This document shows, in pieces, positions 11,595 to 52,752 of a DNA stretch of 53,268 nucleotides (positions are counted from its first letter, which is position 1; each line of letters starts with the position of its first letter). The translations under genes were made by a program, and so were the position numbers. The notes beneath the pieces were generated by a model, which was given only the letters and a program-made list of their open reading frames with translations, was not told where the DNA came from and ran no database searches. The stretch covers positions 1 to 53,268 of the IMG/VR virus record IMGVR_UViG_3300035698_004463; one strand, given 5' to 3'. Source of the DNA: a virus.

Positions 11595-13397
11595 TTGATC
11601 AAACACACAGGCTACATTTTAGGACTCGCTCGCGGACACAACGCCGGCGCCTGCTTACTTAAGGATGGAGAAATAATATTTTCTTTAGAAGAGGAACGAC
11701 TTACTAGGCAAAAATATGATGGTGGTCCTTACGCTACAATGCTTAAGGTATTAGAATATACTAGTAAACTGGATTATATCTTTATATCACACACACAATC
11801 ATTAGAGCAAACTGCAGGCAAGGTAGATTATAGTGGCGAGGACGTATATACGGGATTGGCGCGAAAGTTAGGATTGATTGACAGAAATGTTGACTTGCGA
11901 CATCATCCTCAAGTTGTTGATTTATCTTCGCAGCATCATAAAATACATGCAGCCTGTGCATTTTATAGATCAGGATTTGATACAGCAGTGGCAGTTGTTA
12001 TTGATGGAGCTGGTACTGTATTTAGTGGCACAATGAATGGAGATCAAATATCTCCATGGGAAACTGAAACCGTGCTAGAGTGTGCATATCCTTCAAATTT
12101 TAAAACATTATACAAGCATTCAGGCTGTAGGGAAACTATTGTTTCTGGTATAAACACAAAATCCTCATCTGAACATTTAAATGAAGAAGGAACACATTAT
12201 TCGTTCTTAACAAACAATGCCGGTATTACTAAAGTTTACGAAGCAGTAACTGAATATTGTGGCTTTTCGGCAATAGAAGCTGGTAAAACTATGGGACTGT
12301 TTCCTTATGGAAATGACAATGAATCCATACCTAAGTTGTTTAACCATTCTCAAGATTTACCAATATCAGATAGAAATGTAGTTGTTCCACTATATCCAAA
12401 TGGTGCAATTATTAATGCATCTGTATATGCTTCATTATCTGATAATGGAAAGCCAGATCAAGACTTAACATTAATGCAAAACCGTAGAGATTTGGCATAT
12501 GCGTGCCAAACACAAACGCAAGAAATGGCATTAAATTTAATAATTAAGGCATCTGAAATGTCTGGTAAGAAACAAGTTGTTCTTTCTGGTGGATATGCCC
12601 TTAATTGTGTTGCTAATTATTATTTTTTAAATCAATTAAATAAAGAGGGAATTGAATTATTTGTTGAACCAATATCAAATGATGGAGGTACAGCAATAGG
12701 TGTGGCTCTTTGGGGATTTCATGAAACTACACAATCAACAATGAAACATTTACGTGAAATATACCTTGGTCCTGTGTATAATTACACAAGTAATTACATA
12801 AAGGATTTAGTTAAGGGATACAATGGTGTTGTGGAAGACGCAGACGATGAAAAAATTATTGAAATAATGCGCAATAAAAACATAGTAGCACTATTTCAAG
12901 GAAGATCAGAAAATGGTCCCCGCGCACTTGGCAATCGTACCTTAATGTTTGATCCAACTTTTAAAGATGGTAAGGACTTTGTTAATGAAATTAAACACCG
13001 TGAATATTTTCGACCATTTGCCGGTTCAATTTTGGTTGAAGATGTTCATGAATGGTTTGACTTGCGAGGAATGAAAGATTCTCCTCATATGATGTATGCA
13101 GTTTCATGCAAGGATGGAGTTGAAGAGAAAATTCCTTCTATTATACATGTTGATGGTTCATGCCGTATACAAACAGTGTCCAAGGAAGACAACCCAATAT
13201 ACCACAGAATTATTTCTAAGTTTAAAGAGCAAACAGGAGTACCTATTGTGTTTAATACGTCATTTAACCTTGGCGGTGAACCGCTAGTTGAAACATTAGA
13301 AGATTGCTTGTGGACTTTACAGCAAAGCCAAATACAATATCTTTACTTGCCTGAGTATGGTAAACTAATCACAGTGCCTAACGTAAAAATTATTTAA
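11595..13397 (+). CDS. O-carbamoyltransferase, NodU/CmcH/TobZ family
   Basis: 600 aa, TTG start with AAGAGG 6 nt upstream. The family uses carbamoyl phosphate and ATP to O-carbamoylate sugars or antibiotics. N-terminal Kae1-like domain: ILGLARGHNAGACLL (8-22), EEERLTRQK (32-40), metal-site SSQHHKIHAACAF (111-123), VIDGAG (135-140), later LSGGYALNCVANYY and EPISNDGGTAIGVAL. C-terminal YrdC-like domain: FQGRSENGPRALGNRT, EYFRPFAGSI, PIVFNTSFN. All hallmark motifs are present and length is normal. Together with the adjacent glycosyltransferase it suggests tailoring of a surface or virion glycan. Homologues are known in marine T4-like phages. Confidence 0.9.
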   Translation: MIKHTGYILGLARGHNAGACLLKDGEIIFSLEEERLTRQKYDGGPYATMLKVLEYTSKLDYIFISHTQSLEQTAGKVDYSGEDVYTGLARKLGLIDRNVDLRHHPQVVDLSSQHHKIHAACAFYRSGFDTAVAVVIDGAGTVFSGTMNGDQISPWETETVLECAYPSNFKTLYKHSGCRETIVSGINTKSSSEHLNEEGTHYSFLTNNAGITKVYEAVTEYCGFSAIEAGKTMGLFPYGNDNESIPKLFNHSQDLPISDRNVVVPLYPNGAIINASVYASLSDNGKPDQDLTLMQNRRDLAYACQTQTQEMALNLIIKASEMSGKKQVVLSGGYALNCVANYYFLNQLNKEGIELFVEPISNDGGTAIGVALWGFHETTQSTMKHLREIYLGPVYNYTSNYIKDLVKGYNGVVEDADDEKIIEIMRNKNIVALFQGRSENGPRALGNRTLMFDPTFKDGKDFVNEIKHREYFRPFAGSILVEDVHEWFDLRGMKDSPHMMYAVSCKDGVEEKIPSIIHVDGSCRIQTVSKEDNPIYHRIISKFKEQTGVPIVFNTSFNLGGEPLVETLEDCLWTLQQSQIQYLYLPEYGKLITVPNVKII

Positions 13398-14593: not shown

Positions 14594-14601
14594 TATTTAT
14601 T
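14594..14601 (-). promoter_or_regulatory. Late-box variant AATAAATA, 5 nt from start codon
   Basis: One mismatch from T4 TATAAATA. With the T4 geometry (box at -13 to -6) transcription would begin on the A of the ATG at 14588. Confidence 0.45.
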
Positions 14602-15025
14602 CCTGATTGATTGATAAAATAGTATGTAGTTTAGTAGTACCTTTGTTTCGAATAAGAGTAGTTTTGGCACCTGCGTGCAAGGGCTGCGGCCACCATCCAA
14701 TGTCTACCCATGCATATCCCGCGCTCTCTGAGTTTAGGCTGGGCGTAAACTCTGATTCCACTACATACACAAAGCTATAGTAATAAAATTGCTTATCGGC
14801 GCTCTGAAACACGTCTATGGGGTTTAATTTAGTAAGCTCTGGTACAAAACCAATTTCTTCAGTTAACTCCCGTTGAATGGCAGCATATGGTGTTTCACCC
14901 TGCTCTAATGTGCCACCAAAAAAACCCCAAGTATTTTTGAATCGCTTTTCAGCTTTGCGAAGTTGCAACATGCAACGGCCAGTATTTCGAGCTAAAAAAA
15001 GTACACCTGCGGCTATAGTAGTCAT
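14597..15025 (-). CDS. Nudix hydrolase
   Basis: 142 aa. A perfect Nudix box runs from G38 to G59: G-x5-E44-x7-REL-x-EE57-x-G (GGTLEQGE, then QRELTEEIGF). Such enzymes cleave nucleoside diphosphates linked to another group, such as oxidised dNTPs, NAD, dinucleoside polyphosphates or capped RNA ends. Substrate cannot be deduced. It lies upstream of the unknown gene at 14588 on the minus strand. There is no SD; a weak late-type box GATAATTA is 5 nt upstream. T4 has NudE, but this sequence is not clearly its orthologue. Confidence 0.88.
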   Translation of the reverse strand: MTTIAAGVLFLARNTGRCMLQLRKAEKRFKNTWGFFGGTLEQGETPYAAIQRELTEEIGFVPELTKLNPIDVFQSADKQFYYYSFVYVVESEFTPSLNSESAGYAWVDIGWWPQPLHAGAKTTLIRNKGTTKLHTILSINQE

Positions 15026-41753: not shown

Positions 41754-42749
41754 ATGTCTATAGAATCCATTGTTGAACATACCCACAGGCTGTTACTTGA
41801 TAACCTTCCGGCTAGAACAAAGCATACTCCTAGCGGTTGGGCTATCTTTAATTGCCCTATCTGTTCAGATAAACGCCAACGTGCAGGCATTATAAAAAGC
41901 AGTGCAAAGATTAGTTTTAATTGTTTTAATTGTCATTTTAAAACTGGTTGGGCACCAGGACCAGTATTAGGCGACAAATACCGAGTTCTTGCACTAGCCT
42001 TAGGCGCAACAGATGCTGACGTACACGCCGTAAAAATAGAACTGTTAAAAGAGTCTGATATATTTGAAAATGATTTTCCAACTAATAAGGAATATGTATT
42101 TAAGTCTTCCAAGTTTAAAATTTTAGACTTACCAGAAAACACATCAATGATAGAAGACTTGCCAGACAACCACGCTGTCAAGCAATATGCAATAGAAAGG
42201 GGAATATTAGGGTTATATCCATTATTGCATGTGAATGATGTAAAGAATAGAAAACGAGTAACAGTACCTTATACTTATAATGGCGAGTTAGTAGGGTGGA
42301 CTGGTAGACACGTTAGTCCACCAAATAAAGAAACAGCAAAATACATACAAAGTGTACAAACAGGATATGTATTTAATATGGACAGGTTCGACAACCACAA
42401 GCGCCAAATAGTAATAGTGGTGGAAGGAGTATTTGATGCTATTCTGATTGATGGTGTTAGTGTGTTAGGAAACACAATGTCTCCTGAACAAATACACATG
42501 ATTAATAAATTAGACAAACGGGTAATCTTATGCCCAGATAGAGATAAAGCAGGTAAATCCCTAATAGAACAAGCAGCTGAAGCAGACTGGGAAGTTAGCT
42601 TTCCGCCATGGCATAGCAAGTGTAAAGATGCAGCTGATGCTGTTGCCAGATATGGAAGAATGCTAACAATTGAATCGATAATTAAGTATGCAACGGCAAA
42701 TAAAACAAAAATAAAAGTAAAAACAAGGATGATGGATATTGGGAACTGA
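41754..42749 (+). CDS. 61: DNA primase, T4 gp61-like
   Basis: 331 aa. N-terminal zinc ribbon C34-x2-C37 and C57-x2-C60 (NCPICSDK, FNCFNC). TOPRIM domain: IVVEGVFDAIL with E224, then LCPDRDKAGKSL with D262 and D264. Synthesises RNA primers at the fork with the gp41 helicase, whose gene overlaps the 3' end by 11 nt. No SD, consistent with the promoter lying 5 nt from the ATG. Confidence 0.92.
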   Translation: MSIESIVEHTHRLLLDNLPARTKHTPSGWAIFNCPICSDKRQRAGIIKSSAKISFNCFNCHFKTGWAPGPVLGDKYRVLALALGATDADVHAVKIELLKESDIFENDFPTNKEYVFKSSKFKILDLPENTSMIEDLPDNHAVKQYAIERGILGLYPLLHVNDVKNRKRVTVPYTYNGELVGWTGRHVSPPNKETAKYIQSVQTGYVFNMDRFDNHKRQIVIVVEGVFDAILIDGVSVLGNTMSPEQIHMINKLDKRVILCPDRDKAGKSLIEQAAEADWEVSFPPWHSKCKDAADAVARYGRMLTIESIIKYATANKTKIKVKTRMMDIGN

Positions 42750-44130
42750 AACAGATATAAAAGATTATACGAACGAAGTGCAGGAGTTATTTTTAAGATT
42801 TTTAATAAGTGATCCTGGACTATTTGCTAGGGTACAAAATATTGTTGAGCCTGAATATTTTAATAGGAAATATCAAAGTGCAGTAACTCTGCTTAATAAC
42901 CACAGTACAAATCATAATGCAATTCCTACCCCTGAGCAAATAAAAGCAACAACAGGTATAGAATTAATCCCAATACCAAACATTACACCAGACCACCATA
43001 ATTGGTTTTTAAACGAATTTGAAACATTTTGTAGACATAAAGCCCTTGCGGCAGCAGTAGTAGTAAGTACTGATTTACTTGAAACCCAAGATTATGGCGC
43101 GATTGAAGACATTATTAAAGCTGCCAGTCAAATTGGACTAGTAAAAGACTTAGGCATAGATTATTTTGAAAATCCTAAAGAACGATTAGAATGGATTAAG
43201 TCACAAGCAGGTGGCGTTAGTACTGGCTGGAAAGCAATAGATCATAAGCTGTATGGTGGATTAAATCGAGGAGAGCTTACGATATTTTGTGGTGGTTCTG
43301 GTGCTGGTAAAAGTTTGTTTTTACAAAACTTTGCAGTCAATTGGGCACTTGCAGGAATGAATGTTGTATACATTAGTTTAGAATTAAGTGAACAACTAAT
43401 TTCTCTTAGATTGGATTCTATGATTAGTGAGTATAGCACCAAGGAAGTTATGCGTAACATTGATGACGTTGACTTAAAGGTTAGAATGAAAGCTAAAGGG
43501 TCGGGCAAATTGCGTGTTAAACAAATGCCAAATGGCATAACTGCAAACGACATAAGAGTCTTTTTGCGGGAATACGAAATTCAAATAGGTGAAAAGGTAG
43601 ATTGCTTATTGGTAGATTACTTAGACTTAATGAGTCCAATTAATTCTAAAGTTTCTCCTAGTGACTTGTATATTAAAGACAAATACGTATCAGAAGAACT
43701 ACGAAATTTATCCATTGAACGTAACTTGTTATTTGTAACAGCATCACAGTTAAACAGAGGAGCAGTAGAAGAAGTTGAATTCGACCATAGTCACATTGCT
43801 GGTGGTTTAAGTAAAATACAAACCGCTGATAATGTGATAGGTATTTTTACAAGTAATGCAATGCGTGAACGTGGTAGATACCAAATACAATTTATGAAAA
43901 CCCGTAGTAGTGCTGGTGTAGGGTCAAAAGTAGATTTAAAATTTAATCCTGATACGTTACGTATTATGGATCTTGACGAAAATGATGAAGATGCACTAAC
44001 AGTAACAACTAATAGTTTAGTTGATCAATTAAAGCGCAATGGGTCTATTAAGACAGAATCACCAGAAGCTGCTGATACAGTTAAAGCAGCACTAAACATG
44101 CGAGATTTCTTGAAAAAGACTGACTTTTGA
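42739..44130 (+). CDS. 41: Replicative DNA helicase, T4 gp41 (DnaB-type)
   Basis: 463 aa, TTG start with AAGGA upstream, inside the primase end. N-terminal helical domain, then STGWKAIDHKLYGGLNRGELTIFCGGSGAGKSLFLQNFA with Walker A 185-192, VVYISLELSEQLI (catalytic-Glu motif), CLLVDYLDLMSP (Walker B), LRNLSIERNLLFVTASQLNR and HIAGGLSKIQTADNVIGI. Hexameric 5'-3' helicase of the phage fork. Confidence 0.94.
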   Translation: MGTETDIKDYTNEVQELFLRFLISDPGLFARVQNIVEPEYFNRKYQSAVTLLNNHSTNHNAIPTPEQIKATTGIELIPIPNITPDHHNWFLNEFETFCRHKALAAAVVVSTDLLETQDYGAIEDIIKAASQIGLVKDLGIDYFENPKERLEWIKSQAGGVSTGWKAIDHKLYGGLNRGELTIFCGGSGAGKSLFLQNFAVNWALAGMNVVYISLELSEQLISLRLDSMISEYSTKEVMRNIDDVDLKVRMKAKGSGKLRVKQMPNGITANDIRVFLREYEIQIGEKVDCLLVDYLDLMSPINSKVSPSDLYIKDKYVSEELRNLSIERNLLFVTASQLNRGAVEEVEFDHSHIAGGLSKIQTADNVIGIFTSNAMRERGRYQIQFMKTRSSAGVGSKVDLKFNPDTLRIMDLDENDEDALTVTTNSLVDQLKRNGSIKTESPEAADTVKAALNMRDFLKKTDF

Positions 44131-44173: not shown

Positions 44174-44440
44174 GTGCGCAAATCCCGTAGTATCATAGAG
44201 GAATTAAACCTCATTTCGGCCGATCGTGATCGCAATCATGTTGTAGGAAATCGAGGTGAACACTTAATACAGAGCATTATCCATTTGGTGGAAAATATTG
44301 AGAAATATTATGATGCAGACACAGCAAAAGACTTAACAAACAGAATAGTTAATAGCATTAGGGCTAAAGATCCACAAAAATTTAATCGAGGCATCCGCAA
44401 AGTTATAAAAGAATCATTAAAGGACCAAAATGAAGATTAA
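44174..44440 (+). CDS. Small basic helical protein (88 aa)
   Basis: GTG start, AGGAG 8 nt upstream. Amphipathic helices (RKSRSIIEELNLISADRDRN, HLIQSIIHLVENIEKYYDADTAKDLTNRIVNSIRAK). I-I-E at 7-9 may be a prohead protease site. First of the operon leading to the capsid-targeted enzymes. Function unknown; overlaps the next gene by 11 nt. Confidence 0.5.
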   Translation: MRKSRSIIEELNLISADRDRNHVVGNRGEHLIQSIIHLVENIEKYYDADTAKDLTNRIVNSIRAKDPQKFNRGIRKVIKESLKDQNED

Positions 44441-45053
44441 TGAAATTACTTCTCCAAAAGTACCCAAAGATGGTACATCTGTAAAGCCTAGCAATACAAT
44501 ATTTGTGTTCCGTGGGAATCAATGGATTAATAAACAAACAAAACAGCCAGCAGCTGGACTAGAACTAGTACAAGCTTGGGGAGAATACACCAATCCAGGA
44601 AGTAATGCATCAAAACAAAGCACAATGAGCAAACTTGGAAATAAGATTGCTGGAAAGTATGGCCAAGCTACGCGTAACGACCCAACTAAGTCAACCTTCC
44701 AGAAGATAGGTGGGACACTTGGGTCAGCAATTGGTGGTGCGATTGGCCGCAGAAAAGACAATAAAGCAACAGCAACCCAACCTCCAGCTCGACAGTCAAC
44801 AAAACCTAGTATAGACTATAGCACATCACCAAAATCTAGGGGTGTTACGCCAACAAGAAAGCAACCAACAGCCCCAGTGCGTCCGCCGAGCAATGACTGG
44901 GAAACCGGATATGGTGCTGATGGTACCGGATCTGCCCCACCAAAAGCAAGAGGCGGTAAAGTTGCAGGTAAACTTAGTACAACTAACAATGCAGTACGAA
45001 AAAGAAAAAATCGTGCTGATAAAAAGAATAAAGCAAAACTAGCAGAGCTATAA
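44430..45053 (+). CDS. Basic low-complexity protein with capsid-targeting-like N-terminus (207 aa)
   Basis: MKINEITSPKVPKDGTSVKPSNTIFVFRGNQWINKQTKQPA, then a Gly/Ala segment (FQKIGGTLGSAIGGAIGRRKDNKA) like an amphipathic membrane-active helix, and a long Pro/Thr/Lys-rich disordered tail ending KRKNRADKKNKAKLAEL. High net positive charge fits a DNA-packed internal head protein. Coupled to the NTase gene by TAATG. No catalytic motif. Confidence 0.5.
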   Translation: MKINEITSPKVPKDGTSVKPSNTIFVFRGNQWINKQTKQPAAGLELVQAWGEYTNPGSNASKQSTMSKLGNKIAGKYGQATRNDPTKSTFQKIGGTLGSAIGGAIGRRKDNKATATQPPARQSTKPSIDYSTSPKSRGVTPTRKQPTAPVRPPSNDWETGYGADGTGSAPPKARGGKVAGKLSTTNNAVRKRKNRADKKNKAKLAEL

Positions 45054-45901
45054 TGAAATTAAGTCAGTTTTTTAAATCAAAAGCATTGTATGAGGGCGGG
45101 GCAGCGACCGGCGCTGGCGCAATTCACATTGATGAAATTGATCCAACATTGGATTACTTAGAAAAGCTGCTACATGTTGACTTAAAGAACAACGTTCTAG
45201 GGTCAGTCGGAAAAAAGGAGTTTTCAGGCGATATGGATGTCGCACTTAATATTACTAAAGAAGAAATTCCGGCATTTATTGAAAAACTTAATACAATGCC
45301 AGAAATTTTAGATGTGGTACAAACATCAGTTATTATAACTAAGGTAAAAATTGCAAATTATGACAAATCGATTGAAACTGATAAGCCCAGAACTGGGTAT
45401 GTGCAGTTAGATTTTATGCCTGGTGACCCTTCTTGGTTAAAAACATATTTTCATTCACCAAGCGACACAGATAGTAAATATAAAGGGGTATACCGAAACA
45501 TACTATTAGCAGAAGTAGCAGCCCACTATGAAAGTGTATCCACTGGTGAAGAATTATCTGACGGTAGGCCTCAAAAATTAGAAAGATTTGTGTGGAGCCC
45601 AGTGCATGGATTAGTTCGTGTAGTAAGGACACCAGCATTAAGCAAGTCAGGTGATAAGTATCTTAAGAAAAACAATTCTGCAATAGTAGATGGTCCTTGG
45701 AAGTCACCAGAAGACATTATTAGAGTATTAAATTTGGGAGAAATTGCGGCACTAGACAGTTTTGAATCACTGTTATCAGCAATTGTTAGAAATTATGACC
45801 CTAGCTTAGTAGATGCAATATTAAGTAAAATGGCACATTCGTCCAATGTTAGAAAGATGGGCGTTCCTGATGAGTTAATACATTATATAACAGGTGAGTA
45901 A
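45053..45901 (+). CDS. Pol-beta-superfamily nucleotidyltransferase, capsid-targeting-like N-terminus
   Basis: 282 aa. N-terminus MKLSQFFKSKALYEGG: short amphipathic start with L-Y-E/G (12-15) as prohead-protease-type site. The NTase core is explicit: LGSVGKKEFSGDMDVAL (49-65), the G-S...D60-x-D62 metal motif of the superfamily, and third Asp D120 in YVQLDFMPGD. The family includes tRNA CCA-adding enzymes, poly(A) polymerases, kanamycin-type nucleotidyltransferases and CD-NTases. A basic region (YLKKNNS, GPWKSPEDIIRVL) and helical C-terminus follow. The substrate is unknown. Directly coupled to the KxDG gene (GTGAGTAATGA). Confidence 0.72.
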   Translation: MKLSQFFKSKALYEGGAATGAGAIHIDEIDPTLDYLEKLLHVDLKNNVLGSVGKKEFSGDMDVALNITKEEIPAFIEKLNTMPEILDVVQTSVIITKVKIANYDKSIETDKPRTGYVQLDFMPGDPSWLKTYFHSPSDTDSKYKGVYRNILLAEVAAHYESVSTGEELSDGRPQKLERFVWSPVHGLVRVVRTPALSKSGDKYLKKNNSAIVDGPWKSPEDIIRVLNLGEIAALDSFESLLSAIVRNYDPSLVDAILSKMAHSSNVRKMGVPDELIHYITGE

Positions 45902-47004
45902 TGAAATTACATGAATTTTATGTTAAGATTGTTGAATCTAAAGTTGGAAGAGAATACCAACACTTAGAAGACCTTGTTTTCGTAGACGGCAGTGCTGGCG
46001 CATTACGGGCAGCCGATGTATTAGACGGATTAGCAAATGATTCGAGTGATGTTGCTATCAAGTGGGATGGTAGTCCAACAATATATTGGGGGCGGGAACC
46101 AGACGGTACCTTTGTTTTAGTAGGAAAAAACGGTTGGGGTAAAAATATGAGTACTTCAGCACAGGACTTATCGTCATTCATACAAAATACAGGAAAGGGT
46201 GAAGATTGGCGAGCTCGTTTCGGTAAAGAAATGGGAATCGTGTTTGACATCATGGAATCTGCAACACCTAAAAACTTCCGAGGATACGTTTATGGCGATT
46301 TATTATTTCATCCTGGAAAGCCTCAAGCCATAATTGGTAATATTGTTAAATTTACACCAAATCATGTTACATATACTGTTAAAATTGATGGAAACAATAT
46401 AGGCACTAAAATGGCAGATGCGGAAGTATGTGTAGTAGTACATACAGTTCATGATGCATTTGGTAGCAAGGATGGAACGCCGTTATCTGACGTAACACTG
46501 TTCGACAGTCCAAATGTTGTAGTATTAGGGCAAACTTATGTACAACACCAGCCAAAATTACAAATAAATACATCAGCTGATATTAGAAAGTACATAGCCA
46601 TTCACGAAAAAGATATTGATGCGTTTTTAGCTCCGGTCAAGGGACTAAGCGACATGAAGAACATTATTTATACATACGTAAATCAATCCAGCAAAGCCAA
46701 AACACTTGATAACCTAGAGAATGGATTTTTTGACTGGTTAACAACATCCAAAGTAAGCACCAACAAACAAGCTAAAATAAAAATTATGCACGATGAGCTG
46801 CCAAATGCAATATCATCAATATTTTTATTAATCAAACAAATAATGAATGCAAAAAACGACATAATAGCACAACTAGATGCAGCAGAAGCAGATGTAACTG
46901 CAACAACTGGTAACGAAAGTGGAGGTGAAGGGTTTGTTGCCCAAAACTCCAAAATAAAATTGGTGCCTAGACACAGATGGCAACCAAATTGGACACCAAA
47001 CTAA
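45901..47004 (+). CDS. KxDG nucleotidyltransferase / RNA-ligase-like protein, capsid-targeting-like N-terminus
   Basis: 367 aa. MKLHEFYVKIVES with I-V-E/S (10-13). Motif I of covalent nucleotidyltransferases: VAIKWDGSPTIYWG, with K54 as candidate AMP-accepting lysine in K-W-D-G (54-57). FRGYVYGDLLFHPG (126-139) is a plausible motif III, with Asp in place of the usual Glu. Motifs IV and V are not clear (KIDGNN near 161 and the Lys-rich segment near 300 are candidates). It may ligate RNA or DNA, or only bind nucleotide. The C-terminal region is Ala-rich and helical. It lies between the Pol-beta NTase and the 2H phosphoesterase genes. Confidence 0.6.
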   Translation: MKLHEFYVKIVESKVGREYQHLEDLVFVDGSAGALRAADVLDGLANDSSDVAIKWDGSPTIYWGREPDGTFVLVGKNGWGKNMSTSAQDLSSFIQNTGKGEDWRARFGKEMGIVFDIMESATPKNFRGYVYGDLLFHPGKPQAIIGNIVKFTPNHVTYTVKIDGNNIGTKMADAEVCVVVHTVHDAFGSKDGTPLSDVTLFDSPNVVVLGQTYVQHQPKLQINTSADIRKYIAIHEKDIDAFLAPVKGLSDMKNIIYTYVNQSSKAKTLDNLENGFFDWLTTSKVSTNKQAKIKIMHDELPNAISSIFLLIKQIMNAKNDIIAQLDAAEADVTATTGNESGGEGFVAQNSKIKLVPRHRWQPNWTPN

Positions 47005-48138
47005 ATGGAATTACAATTAATTAATCAAGAAATATGTGAGTCTCGGTTATATCGCACTACTAATAGTTTAGCTAAACTTGACGGCAATGATGTTGCTAAT
47101 TTAACATATCTTAACACGTTAGCTATATATTTAATGTTACAAGACGACCAAACGTACGAATTTGCAAAGAATCATGCTAAAAAAACAACACAATACGGTT
47201 CATATAACAACTTTAAAACTGTAGGCACGGACTTATACATGCTGTGCTATATGTTGACTAACATTCATACTAACGAAGTCACGTTACGCAACCATACATC
47301 CAGTGTGAAGTTTTTGCGGACACTAAGTTTTGACTTCACCCGCCATTTAATTTTTATGCGTATAATGGGACGTAAGGAAGGCAAGAAGTCAATAGCAAGC
47401 AGTTTCTTTTTAAGACTTGAATCTCAGTTAAAAATTAAAGAGTCAAATTATAAACAATATAGACGAGACATTGCTGACTGGAGAAAACTAAACGATGCAT
47501 CTAAGCAGCGACTGCTCAATATGCTTATTATGGATATCAGGAAAATAGCAATGATTGGTGAAGTTATTAATCCACTTAATAGCTTATTACATCGTAGCAA
47601 ATTGTCTGAAGGAGCTGATAATATTGACCACACAAATGGTACTTATAGTTCAGCGTGGCTTTCTAGCGAGTCAACAACAGAAATTCAAAAATGGTGCAAG
47701 GAAAATGGTATTGCTATAAGTACTGAAGAACGTATGCACTGTACTATCATCTATAGTGAAAAACCAGTAACTAGTCTTGTAAAATTTAACAATAAGCGTA
47801 TAAATATTGTGGCTACTATTACCAAATGGGACATTTTTGGAGAGGATAATGATTATTTAGTATTAAAAGTTAAGCATCCCGAGTTAGATAAGTGGAATAG
47901 CTTAATGATGAATGCAGGGGCCATAAGTGATTACGACGAATACCAATCGCATGTAACGATCAATAATGAATATACTGGTAAACTGCCTGATACGCTCCCA
48001 AATTTTAAATTAACATTTGATACTATAGAAGTAACCCCGCTTGATGCTGACGATGACAATGACGATGATCTTGATGAAAGCAATACATCAGTTAGTCTAC
48101 AAAATATTACAGAATTTTGGTCTAAAACCGATAAATAA
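47005..48138 (+). CDS. Fusion: helical domain + protease-like site + 2H phosphoesterase (Acb1-like)
   Basis: 377 aa. Residues 1-195 are a charged helical domain, possibly RNA- or head-binding (FDFTRHLIFMRIMGRKEGKKS). At 200-203 L-S-E/G looks like a prohead-protease site. Residues about 212-325 form a 2H phosphoesterase: H245-C-T247 (MHCTIIYS) and H316-V-T318 (SHVTIN), with DYLVLKVKHPELDKWN between them. This layout resembles LigT/CPDase enzymes and the T4 anti-CBASS Acb1 type, which cleave 2',3'-cyclic or cyclic oligonucleotides. A tail of Asp repeats (DADDDNDDDLDE) ends it. It starts directly after the KxDG gene stop. Confidence 0.65.
   Translation: MELQLINQEICESRLYRTTNSLAKLDGNDVANLTYLNTLAIYLMLQDDQTYEFAKNHAKKTTQYGSYNNFKTVGTDLYMLCYMLTNIHTNEVTLRNHTSSVKFLRTLSFDFTRHLIFMRIMGRKEGKKSIASSFFLRLESQLKIKESNYKQYRRDIADWRKLNDASKQRLLNMLIMDIRKIAMIGEVINPLNSLLHRSKLSEGADNIDHTNGTYSSAWLSSESTTEIQKWCKENGIAISTEERMHCTIIYSEKPVTSLVKFNNKRINIVATITKWDIFGEDNDYLVLKVKHPELDKWNSLMMNAGAISDYDEYQSHVTINNEYTGKLPDTLPNFKLTFDTIEVTPLDADDDNDDDLDESNTSVSLQNITEFWSKTDK
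48130..48137 (+). promoter_or_regulatory. Late promoter box GATAAATA
   Basis: Exact box formed by the last codons (GAT AAA TA) of the preceding gene, 42 nt before ATG 48180. Confidence 0.6.
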
Positions 48139-48918: not shown

Positions 48919-49329
48919 ATGACTATACCGAATAGAGCAGGCGCAATGGGTAGCACTGAAGTATTAACGGGAAATTTAGAATTTTTTACTTTATATACTA
49001 CATTGGATATTACTAGTACTGGAGATTATACAAACAATTCCCAGAAGGATTTTGAAGCAGTAGTTCAAGTAATTGGATTACGTGCTATGCCAGTATTGCA
49101 AAATGTGCCGGTTTTTTTAACTGGTGGAGCAGACGATGCATTAGAAATTTTTGGATCACCAACGTTAACGGGAGCAGGATGGATTTTTAAATTTGCCCTA
49201 GAACGTGCATTTGTTCACACAATTGATACACTTACTGCTGAATTAGACGGCATTGTTTTAAATGATGGAACTATACAAACTAGCAGTGGTGGCATAAACA
49301 TGGAATTCACTAAACAAGATTTACTTTAA
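48919..49329 (+). CDS. Virion-type protein (136 aa)
   Basis: MTIPNRAGAMGSTEVLTGNLEFFTLYTTLDIT is a start seen in small structural proteins of marine T4-like phages. The rest is beta-rich with VVQVIGLRAMPVLQNVPVFLTG. Late promoter and GAGATA before the start. No enzymatic motif. Exact role unknown. Confidence 0.55.
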   Translation: MTIPNRAGAMGSTEVLTGNLEFFTLYTTLDITSTGDYTNNSQKDFEAVVQVIGLRAMPVLQNVPVFLTGGADDALEIFGSPTLTGAGWIFKFALERAFVHTIDTLTAELDGIVLNDGTIQTSSGGINMEFTKQDLL

Positions 49330-49397: not shown

Positions 49398-49640
49398 ATG
49401 TCAACTTCAAAGATACCAAAAGAAATACCTAGACAAGAATTATATACTGACACAGTTGAAGCTCATATTATTGCCGATATGCTACGCATTGAAAGCATTA
49501 CAACTGAACTTAAAGAATTTAAAGTTGACACAAAGGATCGACTAAATAAAATTGAAGGTTGGATAATTGGAATTGTTGGCATAACAGTTACTACACTTTT
49601 AGCAACACTTGGGTCAATTTTATTTAAAGTAGTTTCGTGA
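49398..49640 (+). CDS. XhlA-like small membrane protein, lysis candidate (80 aa)
   Basis: A helical, charged N-terminal part (AHIIADMLRIESITTELKEFKVDTKDRLNKIEG) is followed by one C-terminal membrane segment (WIIGIVGITVTTLLATLGSILF, about 55-76). The topology and the KxxLNKIEGW lead-in are as in XhlA-type haemolysin/holin accessories. It could help holin-mediated lysis, or be a membrane-associated virion protein. No holin or endolysin is otherwise seen in the window. Stop overlaps the next GTG. Confidence 0.5.
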   Translation: MSTSKIPKEIPRQELYTDTVEAHIIADMLRIESITTELKEFKVDTKDRLNKIEGWIIGIVGITVTTLLATLGSILFKVVS

Positions 49641-49918
49641 AATTAGAAGATATATTTGAAGAACGAGTTACTGAAACCCGATTAGTTTGGAAAAAATCTG
49701 GAAATAAGGTGAAACGGGCATATAGATGTACTAGTGGTCCACGCAAAGGCCGAGTAGTTGGTTCAGCTGCTCAATGCAGTAAACCAATTGATATTAAGAA
49801 ACGATTTAATTTTAAAAAAACAAAGGCTAGACTTGGAAATAGAATGGTGCGCAAATCAAAACGTACGAAACGGATGAATCCTGCTAGCAAAAGATTAAGG
49901 ATGCTGAATAAGCGATAA
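49637..49918 (+). CDS. Very basic internal-protein candidate (93 aa)
   Basis: GTG start overlapping the previous stop. MKLEDIFEERVTETRLVW has I-F-E/E and a capsid-targeting-like start. The rest is strongly basic (KKSGNKVKRAYRCTSGPRKGRVVG, KKRFNFKKTKARLGNRMVRKSKRTKRMNPASKRLRMLNKR). After cleavage the product would bind DNA inside the head, like T4 internal proteins. RCTSGPRKGRVVGSAAQC may bind metal through its two Cys. Confidence 0.6.
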   Translation: MKLEDIFEERVTETRLVWKKSGNKVKRAYRCTSGPRKGRVVGSAAQCSKPIDIKKRFNFKKTKARLGNRMVRKSKRTKRMNPASKRLRMLNKR

Positions 49919-49923
49919 AGATT

Positions 49924-51744
49924 ATGAGAGTAACAGACCTAAATGAATATGGATTAACAAGTGGTGCTCCTACGCCTGTAGGACAACAGACACACGCCAC
50001 TACAGCAAAACAAACAGCATCAGCTCCCGTATTGCAGCCTGGCACCACTCCAGCACAAAAAGCTCCACCAGCAATAGATAAAACTCAACAACAAGCAAAG
50101 CCCACTATAGCAAAAGCTAAGGAGTTAGAGGTGGATTTTGAATTTCCTGATAAAAACGGCAATCTAATTAAGGTCGTAACACCAAGTACAGGAAATAAAA
50201 ATAAAGGTGTAGTTGTACAAAATCAAAAAACTAAGGAATTTTATACCTTAGAACCAAATGATAATGTTTTATTACCACAAGTAGAAATGGAAGAAGATGC
50301 TTTTTCAAATTCACTTAAGCATGTTACTGGTAAGCGAGGGAAAAAATTACGCACAAGTCGAAAAGGACATAGACATCTTAACTTTGGCCGGTCGTCAAAG
50401 AAAATGAAAAAATTAATGCGCAAAAAGAGACTAGGAAGCAATCCAATTTTTGAAATTACAGTGGATGACCCAAATGAAATGGAAGAAGTAATTAATCAAC
50501 CAATTTATTGTAGTTTTGAAGCTGAATTTATATGGCACGATCTTCCTGGATCAGAAAATTACGATGAAGAAATAGCTCAACGAGCTGTTGCAGAGGAAAT
50601 AAACAACTGGGTAATAGAGCATAGCATAGTTAAAAGCATAAAAGCCGGAGATTTTTATCAAGGAGACGTGGAACCTGATCAAAATTACTGGCGCGTCGAA
50701 GATGACCCATCATTGGAAAGCAACTCAGGAATAACCTCCGAAATTATATCACCAATGTATGCAACTCCAGCAACTATGATTGGAGAATTAGGAAGTTTAT
50801 TAGAATTCTTTGAAACTCATGGTGTTGAGACTAATAACTCTACCAGTCTGCACGTTACTATGAGCTGGGCCCGGGACACTGTGGCAGTTGATAAATTAAA
50901 AATGGGACTGTTATTAGGCGATCGATACTTTCTTAAGCAATTTGAGAATGAAGATCCTAAAAGAATTAAATACGTAGAGCGGGCATTAGCGGCATTATAT
51001 AAAAATATAAACAACCCACACGCATTGCATGCATTAGAAAAGGGATTATCTGACATAGCAGAGTCAGAAAAATTCAGTACTGTGCATTTTACAGGCAAAG
51101 AAAACGAGCTTAACAACCAACTAGTTGAATTCCGATTAGTTAGTGGTGACGATTACCATTTAAATTTTGGGAAAATAACAGATTTAATATCAAAATATTC
51201 TGTTGTTATTGCAGCAGGACACAATGATACTGCATATAATCAAGAATATATATTAGCAGTTGATGCAGCAATCCACGGCATACAAAAAGCAGCACCAATT
51301 GAAGTAGCAGCACCTAAGCGCCAACCACCTAAAGTTCCTAGTACATTTGATAACTTTAGTGATCGGCCTCTAGCAGAACAGTTGCGTATGTTAGATGGCA
51401 TTGACGATAACAAACTAGAAGAAGCCTATAATATTTCTAAAATGCCACCAAAACTGGCAAAAAAAGTTAAAGAGAAAAAAGCGCAAACAGCAGCAATGTA
51501 TGAAGGCGCCGTTCCAGACCTAACAACAGTACGACAAATTAAGAAAATTTTAGCATCCCCGTTATTGGGTGGTGACTTAAAAGGACAAATGGCTGCTTAT
51601 ATAGTAGTCCCAGATCCAACCATGGTTAAATCTTTTAGAGAAGCAATCGCAATGGGTGGAAAAAATTACGATTTACGTGACATATTTAAAGGCTTTGTAC
51701 GCAATAACGTTCATCCTGAAATACTAAAAAACCTCAATGCATGA
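49924..51744 (+). CDS. Amidoligase-like protein with capsid-targeting-like N-terminus (606 aa)
   Basis: MRVTDLNEYG has L-N-E/Y (6-9). Residues 10-110 are Ala/Pro/Thr/Gln-rich, and 135-172 are very basic (GKRGKKLRTSRKGHRHLNFGRSSKKMKK). The region about 195-405 follows the predicted amidoligase family (COOH-NH2 ligase, GS-like fold): YCSFEAEF (195-202), SEIISPMYATPATMIGELGSLLEFFE (272-297), NNSTSLHVTMSW (304-315) and LVEFRL (400-405). Such enzymes are predicted to form amide bonds using ATP. The substrate is unknown; peptidoglycan peptides or proteins are possible. The C-terminal 150 residues are helical. Confidence 0.55.
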   Translation: MRVTDLNEYGLTSGAPTPVGQQTHATTAKQTASAPVLQPGTTPAQKAPPAIDKTQQQAKPTIAKAKELEVDFEFPDKNGNLIKVVTPSTGNKNKGVVVQNQKTKEFYTLEPNDNVLLPQVEMEEDAFSNSLKHVTGKRGKKLRTSRKGHRHLNFGRSSKKMKKLMRKKRLGSNPIFEITVDDPNEMEEVINQPIYCSFEAEFIWHDLPGSENYDEEIAQRAVAEEINNWVIEHSIVKSIKAGDFYQGDVEPDQNYWRVEDDPSLESNSGITSEIISPMYATPATMIGELGSLLEFFETHGVETNNSTSLHVTMSWARDTVAVDKLKMGLLLGDRYFLKQFENEDPKRIKYVERALAALYKNINNPHALHALEKGLSDIAESEKFSTVHFTGKENELNNQLVEFRLVSGDDYHLNFGKITDLISKYSVVIAAGHNDTAYNQEYILAVDAAIHGIQKAAPIEVAAPKRQPPKVPSTFDNFSDRPLAEQLRMLDGIDDNKLEEAYNISKMPPKLAKKVKEKKAQTAAMYEGAVPDLTTVRQIKKILASPLLGGDLKGQMAAYIVVPDPTMVKSFREAIAMGGKNYDLRDIFKGFVRNNVHPEILKNLNA

Positions 51745-51756
51745 GAAGGAAAATAT

Positions 51757-52752
51757 ATGAAGATTAGTGAAATTTTAAACGAAATGGGAGTTGGCGGTGT
51801 TGCATCTGTAGCAATGCCAATGGGCGCAGTAGTACGTAGGGCTCCCGGTAGTCCGCCTAAACGAAAAAAGAAAAAGACACCTGAGGCAGAGCATGCAGGG
51901 TGTGCAACGTGCAACGGAAGTGGTATAGATAGTGCTGAAAATGCATGTAAAGCATGTGACGGTTCTGGACATAAACTTGAAGAGGCGACTGCATTTAAGG
52001 GTAAGTTAAATTTTACAGGTGACGATTTAAATCGCCTTGCTACAATTAGAGACTTAGGCGCCATGAAAGAAAAAGCAATGGCACTAATAGATAATCCTAA
52101 ATCAGACTATCCAATGAAACCGGAAAAGATTGAACATTTTAAAAACGCGATGGAACGAATGAATTCACCAGACAAAGTAATCAAGTTAATGTACGATTTA
52201 CTTTTAAGTGGAGAAGGCATGGGGGTAGTTGGCTCCAAAGGAAGTATGACCAAAAGCTCATACCGTGATAAGTTTGGTGAAGGCAAGGACAAGCCAAACT
52301 CAGTTAAGTTTAATCCTGTTGCAAAGCACATGAATACATTTAACAAAGCTTCTACAGAAACAGACAGGAAAAAAGCTTCTAAGCGTGGCGCAGTTAAACA
52401 TAAAGGCAAAAGTATGGAGGAAGACGCTGCAAAAAAGATGTCAGGTCCAGCAGCTAGCATGTCAAGATCCGAAACTCAAGCCAATAAACGCAATACGTCA
52501 AAAAAACGCAGACAGGATGGAAAAAAAGTTAGAAGCGTGGAAGAGGACAAGGGTCCATGTTGGGACGATTACAAGCAAATTGGCATGAAAAAGAAAAGTG
52601 GCAAACAAGTTCCAAATTGTGTACCAGAAGCAAAAACAAAAAGTGTTCCCCATGCTAAGGCAAGTACTAAAGCACCGGCTCCTAAAAAACATAAAAGCGG
52701 CAATACGTCACCACACCCGATGCGTGGTAAATTCGTAGGCGGTGGAATGTAA
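51757..52752 (+). CDS. Capsid-core-type protein with CxxCxGxG pair (331 aa)
   Basis: AGAAGG SD. MKISEILNEMG has L-N-E/M (7-10). PPKRKKKKTPEAE (33-45) is followed by DnaJ-like CATCNGSG (49-56) and CKACDGSG (64-71), then L-E-E/A (74-77). Central SYRDKFGEGKDKPNSVKFNP, a Lys-rich disordered region, and CWDDYKQIGMKKKSGKQVPNCVPEA (two Cys framing a basic loop, near 275-297). Ends HPMRGKFVGGGM. Probably an internal head protein cut into pieces on maturation. No enzymatic motif. Confidence 0.5.
   Translation: MKISEILNEMGVGGVASVAMPMGAVVRRAPGSPPKRKKKKTPEAEHAGCATCNGSGIDSAENACKACDGSGHKLEEATAFKGKLNFTGDDLNRLATIRDLGAMKEKAMALIDNPKSDYPMKPEKIEHFKNAMERMNSPDKVIKLMYDLLLSGEGMGVVGSKGSMTKSSYRDKFGEGKDKPNSVKFNPVAKHMNTFNKASTETDRKKASKRGAVKHKGKSMEEDAAKKMSGPAASMSRSETQANKRNTSKKRRQDGKKVRSVEEDKGPCWDDYKQIGMKKKSGKQVPNCVPEAKTKSVPHAKASTKAPAPKKHKSGNTSPHPMRGKFVGGGM

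Follow-up and report, generated by a model that had tools for sequence, protein, structure and literature searches.

Why would a phage encode a predicted nucleotidyltransferase, a ligase-like protein and a phosphoesterase in three directly adjoining genes, each beginning with what looks like a capsid-targeting leader? The question is raised by ORF1, ORF2 and ORF3 of IMG/VR virus record IMGVR_UViG_3300035698_004463, analysed over its whole length of 53,268 bases (the window). Genes for tail sheath, terminase, UvsX and UvsY are present, and the source of the window is a large T4-like myophage. The explanation that we favour, with some reserve, is that the three proteins are targeted by their leaders, cleaved and ejected as enzymes for polynucleotide end repair, together with an Acb1 domain directed against the cyclic oligonucleotide-based antiphage signalling system (CBASS).

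A sequence-only reading of the same DNA had proposed a capsid-delivered set of a Pol-beta-type nucleotidyltransferase, a KxDG nucleotidyltransferase or ligase and a 2H phosphoesterase. The three genes do abut or overlap on the plus strand, and all the catalytic residues that it named were found in place (G50, D60, D62 and D120 in ORF1, K54 in ORF2, H245 and H316 in ORF3). For comparison 267 records were surveyed (266 loci and the window); these loci are fragmentary and some are near-duplicates.

Families and folds of the three proteins

The motif region of ORF1 reads GSVGKKEFSGDMD, with G50, S51, D60, D62 and D120, and G59, D60, D62 and D120 are invariant across 51 relatives. Such relatives were found in jumbo phages and also in viral contigs at 50-58% identity. 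No Pfam or PHROGs family matched ORF1, and profile searches of the ORF1 and ORF2 sequences against the PDB gave unrelated weak matches or none. The fold was read from an AlphaFold2 (AF2) model of a natural fusion of ORF1 and ORF2 (locus L138, 679 aa, pLDDT 89). In a Foldseek search against the PDB the best matches of this model were DNA polymerases beta and lambda (E 1e-4); there were 43 matches at <=1e-3, and among the matches listed all were Pol beta or lambda. With its GS...DxD motif, third aspartate and palm fold, ORF1 is, as modelled, a nucleotidyltransferase of the Pol-beta superfamily.

ORF2 belongs to DUF6267 (PF19782, E 4e-28), a Pfam family without function that is not named in any paper of the literature searched. 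K54-W-D-G57, corresponding to motif I (KxDG), is invariant in 38 relatives; over the 38 sequences KWDG, GDLL, EGxV and KLVxR are kept in that order and K353 is conserved. In jumbo-type phages a ligase-like gene lies directly before the nucleotidyltransferase gene in nearly every locus, with two genes between them in PA5oct. This ligase-like family has motifs I (EKLDG), III, IV (EGVV) and V and a weak match to RNA_ligase (PF09414, E 0.002), and one of its members carries the name RNA ligase in UniProt. Alignment of DUF6267 with the family by hhalign covered 63 columns around motif I (96%, E 3.9e-9). The deeper family was needed for this link, a three-sequence version giving 22%, and comparison of DUF6267 with single T4 ligases was not significant. 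The jumbo-phage ligase profile also recovered DUF6267 proteins from 4,353 background ORFs. A structure search against viral models found several RNA and DNA ligases, only weakly (best E 7e-3), and the PDB match list of the fusion model was filled by Pol beta. On these motifs and profiles, ORF2 and DUF6267 are concluded to be putative covalent nucleotidyltransferases, diverged members of the ligase superfamily, a placement by which a single adenylation assay can test an orphan family. In HTVC008M a 5'-kinase-like gene stands next to DUF6267; it was set aside, as none was found near the other loci.

ORF3 has two parts. Residues 13-200, overlooked by the sequence-only reading, are a separate conserved all-alpha family, ORF3N, modelled confidently by AF2 (pLDDT above 90 for most residues between 20 and 195) and without a fold match in the PDB. 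ORF3N is the true third member of the cassette: the order ORF1, ORF2, ORF3N occurs in 47 of the 267 records, ORF1 before ORF2 in 80 and ORF2 before ORF3N in 79. A toxin-antitoxin reading of ORF1 and ORF3N as a HEPN/MNT pair was set aside, no clear HEPN RxxxxH motif being seen by eye and ORF3N having no fold match.

Residues 211-349 of ORF3 match Acb1 (Pfam PF23474, E 7e-20, profile positions 1-140 of 144), and the domain also matches solved Acb1 and the Pam3 portal. The HxT/HxT tetrad described for T4 Acb1 (PMC9117128) is here H245, T247, H316 and T318, and both histidines are invariant among six Acb1 domains. To judge from this match, the C terminus of ORF3 is a true Acb1 domain. Nearly all ORF3N proteins are without it. 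Acb1 is joined to the cassette in two of about 270 loci, independently: in the window and in L161 (1989-4319, minus strand), where DUF6267, a HIGH-type cytidylyltransferase and Acb1 form a single 776-aa protein. Acb1 is therefore an optional load and not a standing partner, and the 2H domain as an integral repair partner was rejected on this distribution. No close relative of ORF3, or of the Acb1 of Vibrio phage pv27, was found in viral scans; an Acb1 alignment was too diverse to use for scanning. In place of the window's Acb1, some ORF3N proteins (L023:4037-4861, L262:1152-3080) have a C-terminal tail rich in glycine (GTVAGAIAGKY...GTGIGAIAGYWASGRK) that is possibly membrane-related.

The enzyme classes of the sequence-only reading were thus recovered (nucleotidyltransferase fold, ligase superfamily, Acb1-type 2H), with their catalytic residues kept in relatives, and the search for the same gene order that it had suggested found ORF1, ORF2 and ORF3N in recurring order. 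Its three-enzyme unit for RNA healing and sealing was not supported as such by the survey, the conserved third member being the alpha-helical ORF3N.

Leaders, predicted cleavage sites and the probable head-protein block

Internal proteins of T4 are directed into the prohead core by leaders 10-19 residues long, which gp21 removes (PMC9026906). The MK-type N-termini with (L/I)xE sites that had been noticed on ORF1 and ORF2 exist. For ORF3, LSE↓G before the 2H domain had been seen correctly (arrows mark predicted cuts), and the protein's own leader, MELQLINQEICE↓SR, had been missed. In relatives of ORF1, (L/I)xE↓GG or ↓SG is kept at the cut and the upstream part varies. A site stands directly before the mature core in 47 of 52 distinct ORF1 sequences, against a background of 7%, and just before the HxED core in 85 of 89 distinct ORF2 relatives, against 10%. 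All 26 distinct ORF3N relatives have one (background 5%), and in 25 its distance from the core is exactly 13 residues. The P1' residue is G or S in ORF1, mostly A, G or S in ORF2, and S or A in ORF3N. In the helicase and primase of the same loci an M(K/R) start and an early (L/I)xE were never combined.

Fusions between the genes keep the sites as well. ORF1 and ORF2 are a single ORF in 15 loci (about nine distinct sequences), L180 has the reverse fusion of ORF2 and ORF1, and in L262 ORF2 is fused to ORF3N. Fused ORFs retain an (L/I)xE site at the junction, and L262 retains the entire ORF3N leader. Homologues without a leader begin where the cut would fall: those of ORF1 in Atu_ph07, Phosso and PA5oct start exactly there (M-GG), and so does a leaderless ORF2 homologue in P-HM2.

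A gp21-type S77 prohead protease is encoded by four of the four complete relatives searched; none was seen in related contig fragments, and no PHROGs match to one was found among the window genes scanned. The ORF1 homologue of PA5oct is annotated in its record as a structural protein detected by electrospray ionization tandem mass spectrometry (ESI-MS/MS), within a run of such genes. In cyanophages the gene after DUF6267 (T4-GC 71) encodes the cytidylyltransferase T4-GC 190. The latter served as a positive control: the S-SM1 protein (L293:20257-21420) has the leader MKKFSAFLNE↓A and was detected in virions by mass spectrometry (PMC3037559). Taken together, the in-register sites, the fusions into polyproteins, the gp21-type protease of complete relatives and the virion homologues annotated from mass spectrometry lend good support to the capsid delivery that the sequence-only reading had supposed for ORF1, ORF2 and ORF3.

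Leaders were also found on free-standing Acb1 proteins. In the Vibrio phages pv27, Va1 and phiKT1024 (L284:2941-3465, L288:541-1074 and L289:541-1062) Acb1 has an IPI-like leader, M(K/N)PKSFREHLNQTSTDFITE↓A, which reads MKPKSFREHLNQTSTDFITE↓A in pv27 and phiKT1024 and MNPKSFREHLNQTSTDFITE↓A in Va1; T4 IPI has MKTFKEFTSTTTPVSTITE↓A. These starts suggest that Acb1 may be head-delivered in isolated phages. In T4 (L287:1592-2411) the immediate neighbour of the acb1 gene 57B is ipI, which encodes the injected internal protein I, and T4 Acb1 itself has no leader. Portal proteins with a C-terminal Acb1-like domain occur in Pam3 and RHph_TM3_3_3.

The three genes lie in a block (Table 1) that directly follows a DnaB-type helicase gene (42739-44130), homologous to annotated helicases of Atu_ph07, Phosso and HTVC008M. 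The block is opened by an 88-aa protein whose family sits just upstream in most related loci and whose PA5oct homologue is annotated as a virion structural protein. In L026 a protein from the slot of the following 207-aa gene is fused upstream of ORF1 and ORF2. An M(K/R) start with an early (L/I)xE was found in 7 genes of the 11-gene block from 44174 and in 0 of 40 other window genes (Fisher p 3e-6). On the favoured explanation, the block, which runs from 44174 to about 52750, probably encodes head-internal (core) proteins of the phage, and on their starts the last three genes of Table 1 are likely to encode further ones. The protein at 51757-52752 begins MKISEILNE, weakly matches a DnaJ-type CxxCxGxG zinc motif, also has DUF7230 and is probably head-internal too.

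Table 1. Features of the probable head-protein block, with positions in the window
Feature	Position	Strand	Remarks
88-aa protein, first of block	44174..44440	+	phrog_11854 'virion structural protein', PHROGs E 1e-18
207-aa low-complexity protein	44430..45053	+	leader-like start MKINEI; slot of variable gene before nucleotidyltransferase
ORF1 (282 aa)	45053..45901	+	predicted Pol-beta-fold nucleotidyltransferase
ORF1 predicted capsid-targeting propeptide	45053..45094	+	MKLSQFFKSKALYE, cut after LYE
ORF2 (367 aa)	45901..47004	+	DUF6267; start overlaps ORF1 stop
ORF2 predicted propeptide	45901..45936	+	MKLHEFYVKIVE, cut after IVE
ORF3 (377 aa)	47005..48138	+	directly abuts ORF2
ORF3 predicted propeptide	47005..47040	+	MELQLINQEICE (then SR), cut after ICE
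ORF3N, conserved all-alpha domain	47041..47604	+	homologues in 139 ORFs
Acb1-type 2H phosphoesterase domain	47611..48060	+	LSE↓G before it at 47602-47610
136-aa protein of same block	48919..49329	+	PA5oct homologue annotated as found by ESI-MS/MS
Three more genes, starts 49637, 49924, 51757	49637..52752	+	M(K/R) start and early (L/I)xE

Comparable starts were seen in Atu_ph07, where six neighbouring ORFs (L001:7549-12442) all begin M(R/K)(W/L)xQLxE↓; several look related, with YRG-type motifs reminiscent of ADP-ribosyltransferases, and the run is likely to encode further head-delivered effectors. Elsewhere in the window, a NUDIX hydrolase gene (14597-15025, minus strand) has PHROGs matches that include a portal protein family, perhaps making it another enzyme found fused to portals, and a Nol-like carbamoyltransferase family gene (11595-13397) lies near tail-fibre genes.

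Proposed mechanism and rival explanations

The short N-terminal leaders would target ORF1, ORF2 and ORF3 into the prohead core, the phage's gp21-type protease would cut after (L/I)xE, and the mature enzymes would be ejected with the DNA and act before early gene expression. ORF1 would add nucleotides to a broken polynucleotide end, ORF2 would form a lysine-nucleotide adduct at K54 and seal or cap the end, and ORF3N may serve as a partner or for targeting. The Acb1 domain may be released from ORF3 by a second (L/I)xE cut, and delivered Acb1 would be at work within the first minutes, hydrolysing the cyclic oligonucleotides of CBASS. We infer that the chemistry would be polynucleotide end repair with an optional anti-CBASS domain. 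In T4, Acb1 becomes active only some 15 min into infection, at the onset of CBASS killing (PMC9117128), so early delivery of Acb1 would be extra safety, not a need. T4 internal proteins, which are injected inhibitors of defence (PMC3012670; PMC12373910), give a precedent for the purpose.

The sequence-only reading had thought of RNA ends. The nucleotidyltransferase model best fits DNA polymerases beta and lambda, so repair of DNA gaps has to be considered on a par with repair of tRNA. As substrate of ORF1 and ORF2, RNA such as cleaved tRNA and gapped DNA of the incoming genome have much the same likelihood: DNA because of the Pol-beta fold and the precedent of PgVPolX (PMC5537341), RNA because of the RNA-ligase-like relatives, the missing OB domain and the RlaP theme (PMC7824862). 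One tentative possibility is an RNA kit of the sort proposed for RlaP nucleotidyltransferases with RNA ligases: where host anticodon nucleases have cut tRNA or other RNA, ORF1 would restore nucleotides, ORF2 would reseal the break and the 2H domain would heal 2',3'-cyclic ends. It is suggested by the PF09414 match and the RNA ligase name among the jumbo-phage relatives, by the nucleotidyltransferase neighbouring the ligase-like gene in nearly all jumbo-type loci that have the latter, and by RlaP and RNA ligase being a described pair; however, RlaP was not among the 25 listed of the 28 Pfam families in a scan of 51 ORF1 members, and nearly all related loci are without a 2H domain. A kit in which ORF1, as a reduced Pol X, fills short gaps and ORF2 seals nicks of the incoming phage genome is about as tentative. 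The fold matches, a weak Pol-beta thumb match in one ORF1 relative (E 0.006), the natural fusions of ORF1 and ORF2 and the known repair of gaps by a Pol-beta and ligase fusion (PMC5537341) argue for it. Against it, the Pol X palm family PF14792 had zero matches in the genomes of four relatives at E up to 10, the jumbo-phage relatives of ORF2 weakly match an RNA ligase family, and in ORF2 just 10 residues follow R357 of motif V, without the C-terminal OB domain and motif VI that are usual in DNA ligases.

It is improbable that the proteins are building blocks of the prohead core without a catalytic job after injection: several T4 core proteins are structural (PMC5694885) and the PA5oct block is rich in proteins detected by mass spectrometry, but the catalytic residues show no variation among 51 diverse sequences of ORF1 and 38 of ORF2. 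Very improbable is a role as ordinary cytoplasmic late enzymes with coincidental sites; the shortness of the motif and the leaderless starts of some cyanophage DUF6267 proteins would fit, whereas the frequency of the sites over background, their retention at fusion junctions and the PA5oct annotation speak against coincidence.

Several points weigh against the favoured explanation of packaged, cleaved and ejected repair enzymes. Motif III of DUF6267 has D for E and motif V is without the second lysine. Structure and profile comparison, proposed earlier as a check, gave the nucleotidyltransferase fold, the ligase-family link and the Acb1 match, but no solved ligase was matched when DUF6267 was searched by sequence against the PDB. 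The L/I-x-E motif is short and the relatives share ancestry, so that the site counts are not independent events, and some cyanophage DUF6267 proteins have no leader. Neither a capsid gene nor a protease was recognised in the window, which is a fragment, and delivery in its phage is predicted from genes. The ORF3 model is of poor quality in its Acb1 part, since just two alignment rows covered it.

It is quite possible, if short of probable, that T4-like phages of a widespread class carry in the head a processed repair kit (Pol-beta nucleotidyltransferase, DUF6267 ligase and ORF3N), made in some lineages as one polyprotein cut by the prohead protease, and that some of these and some Vibrio phages add Acb1, destroying CBASS signals before phage gene expression. 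If this is true, a phage could repair damage and silence defence from the first moment of infection. Injected T4 proteins block restriction enzymes and modify RNA polymerase; we know of no description of an injected polynucleotide repair kit or an injected anti-CBASS enzyme. The delivery route was already known, the cargo is new, and one orphan family is placed. With the leader rule, M(K/R/E)...(L/I)xE ahead of a core that is conserved, the head-delivered effectors of large marine phages can be listed in a simple manner.

Comparison with known systems

T4 IPI-IPIII and Alt share with the three proteins a short M(K/E) leader and an (L/I)xE cut site. The ORF3 leader resembles that of T4 Alt (MELITE↓), and those of ORF1 and ORF2 resemble T4 IPI (MKTFKEF...ITE↓A). 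The T4 internal proteins are small restriction inhibitors, whereas the cargo in the window is a nucleotidyltransferase, a ligase-like enzyme and Acb1, in related loci sometimes as one cleavable polyprotein. T4 Acb1 (gp57B, PF23474) belongs to the same family over the whole domain and has the same HxT/HxT tetrad, but it is free-standing and active about 15 min into infection (PMC9117128), and the Acb1 of the window is fused to a leader-bearing core protein. In polyvalent proteins, 2H domains fused to MuF or portal (PMC5512222) are likewise part of a protein predicted to be packaged and injected; the route predicted for the window is in contrast a T4-type leader and protease, and the fusion partner is the ORF3N family.

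The RlaP nucleotidyltransferase and RNA ligase of jumbo phages (PMC7824862) are similar in that a Pol-beta-type nucleotidyltransferase stands beside a ligase. In the window there is no RlaP Pfam match, DUF6267 takes the place of a recognised RNA ligase, and leaders and a virion context are added. PgVPolX also combines a Pol-beta fold with an enzyme of the ligase superfamily, as do the 15 fused loci related to the window. Its ligase, however, is NAD-dependent and it has lyase activity, whereas the phage proteins are predicted to be split by proteolysis.

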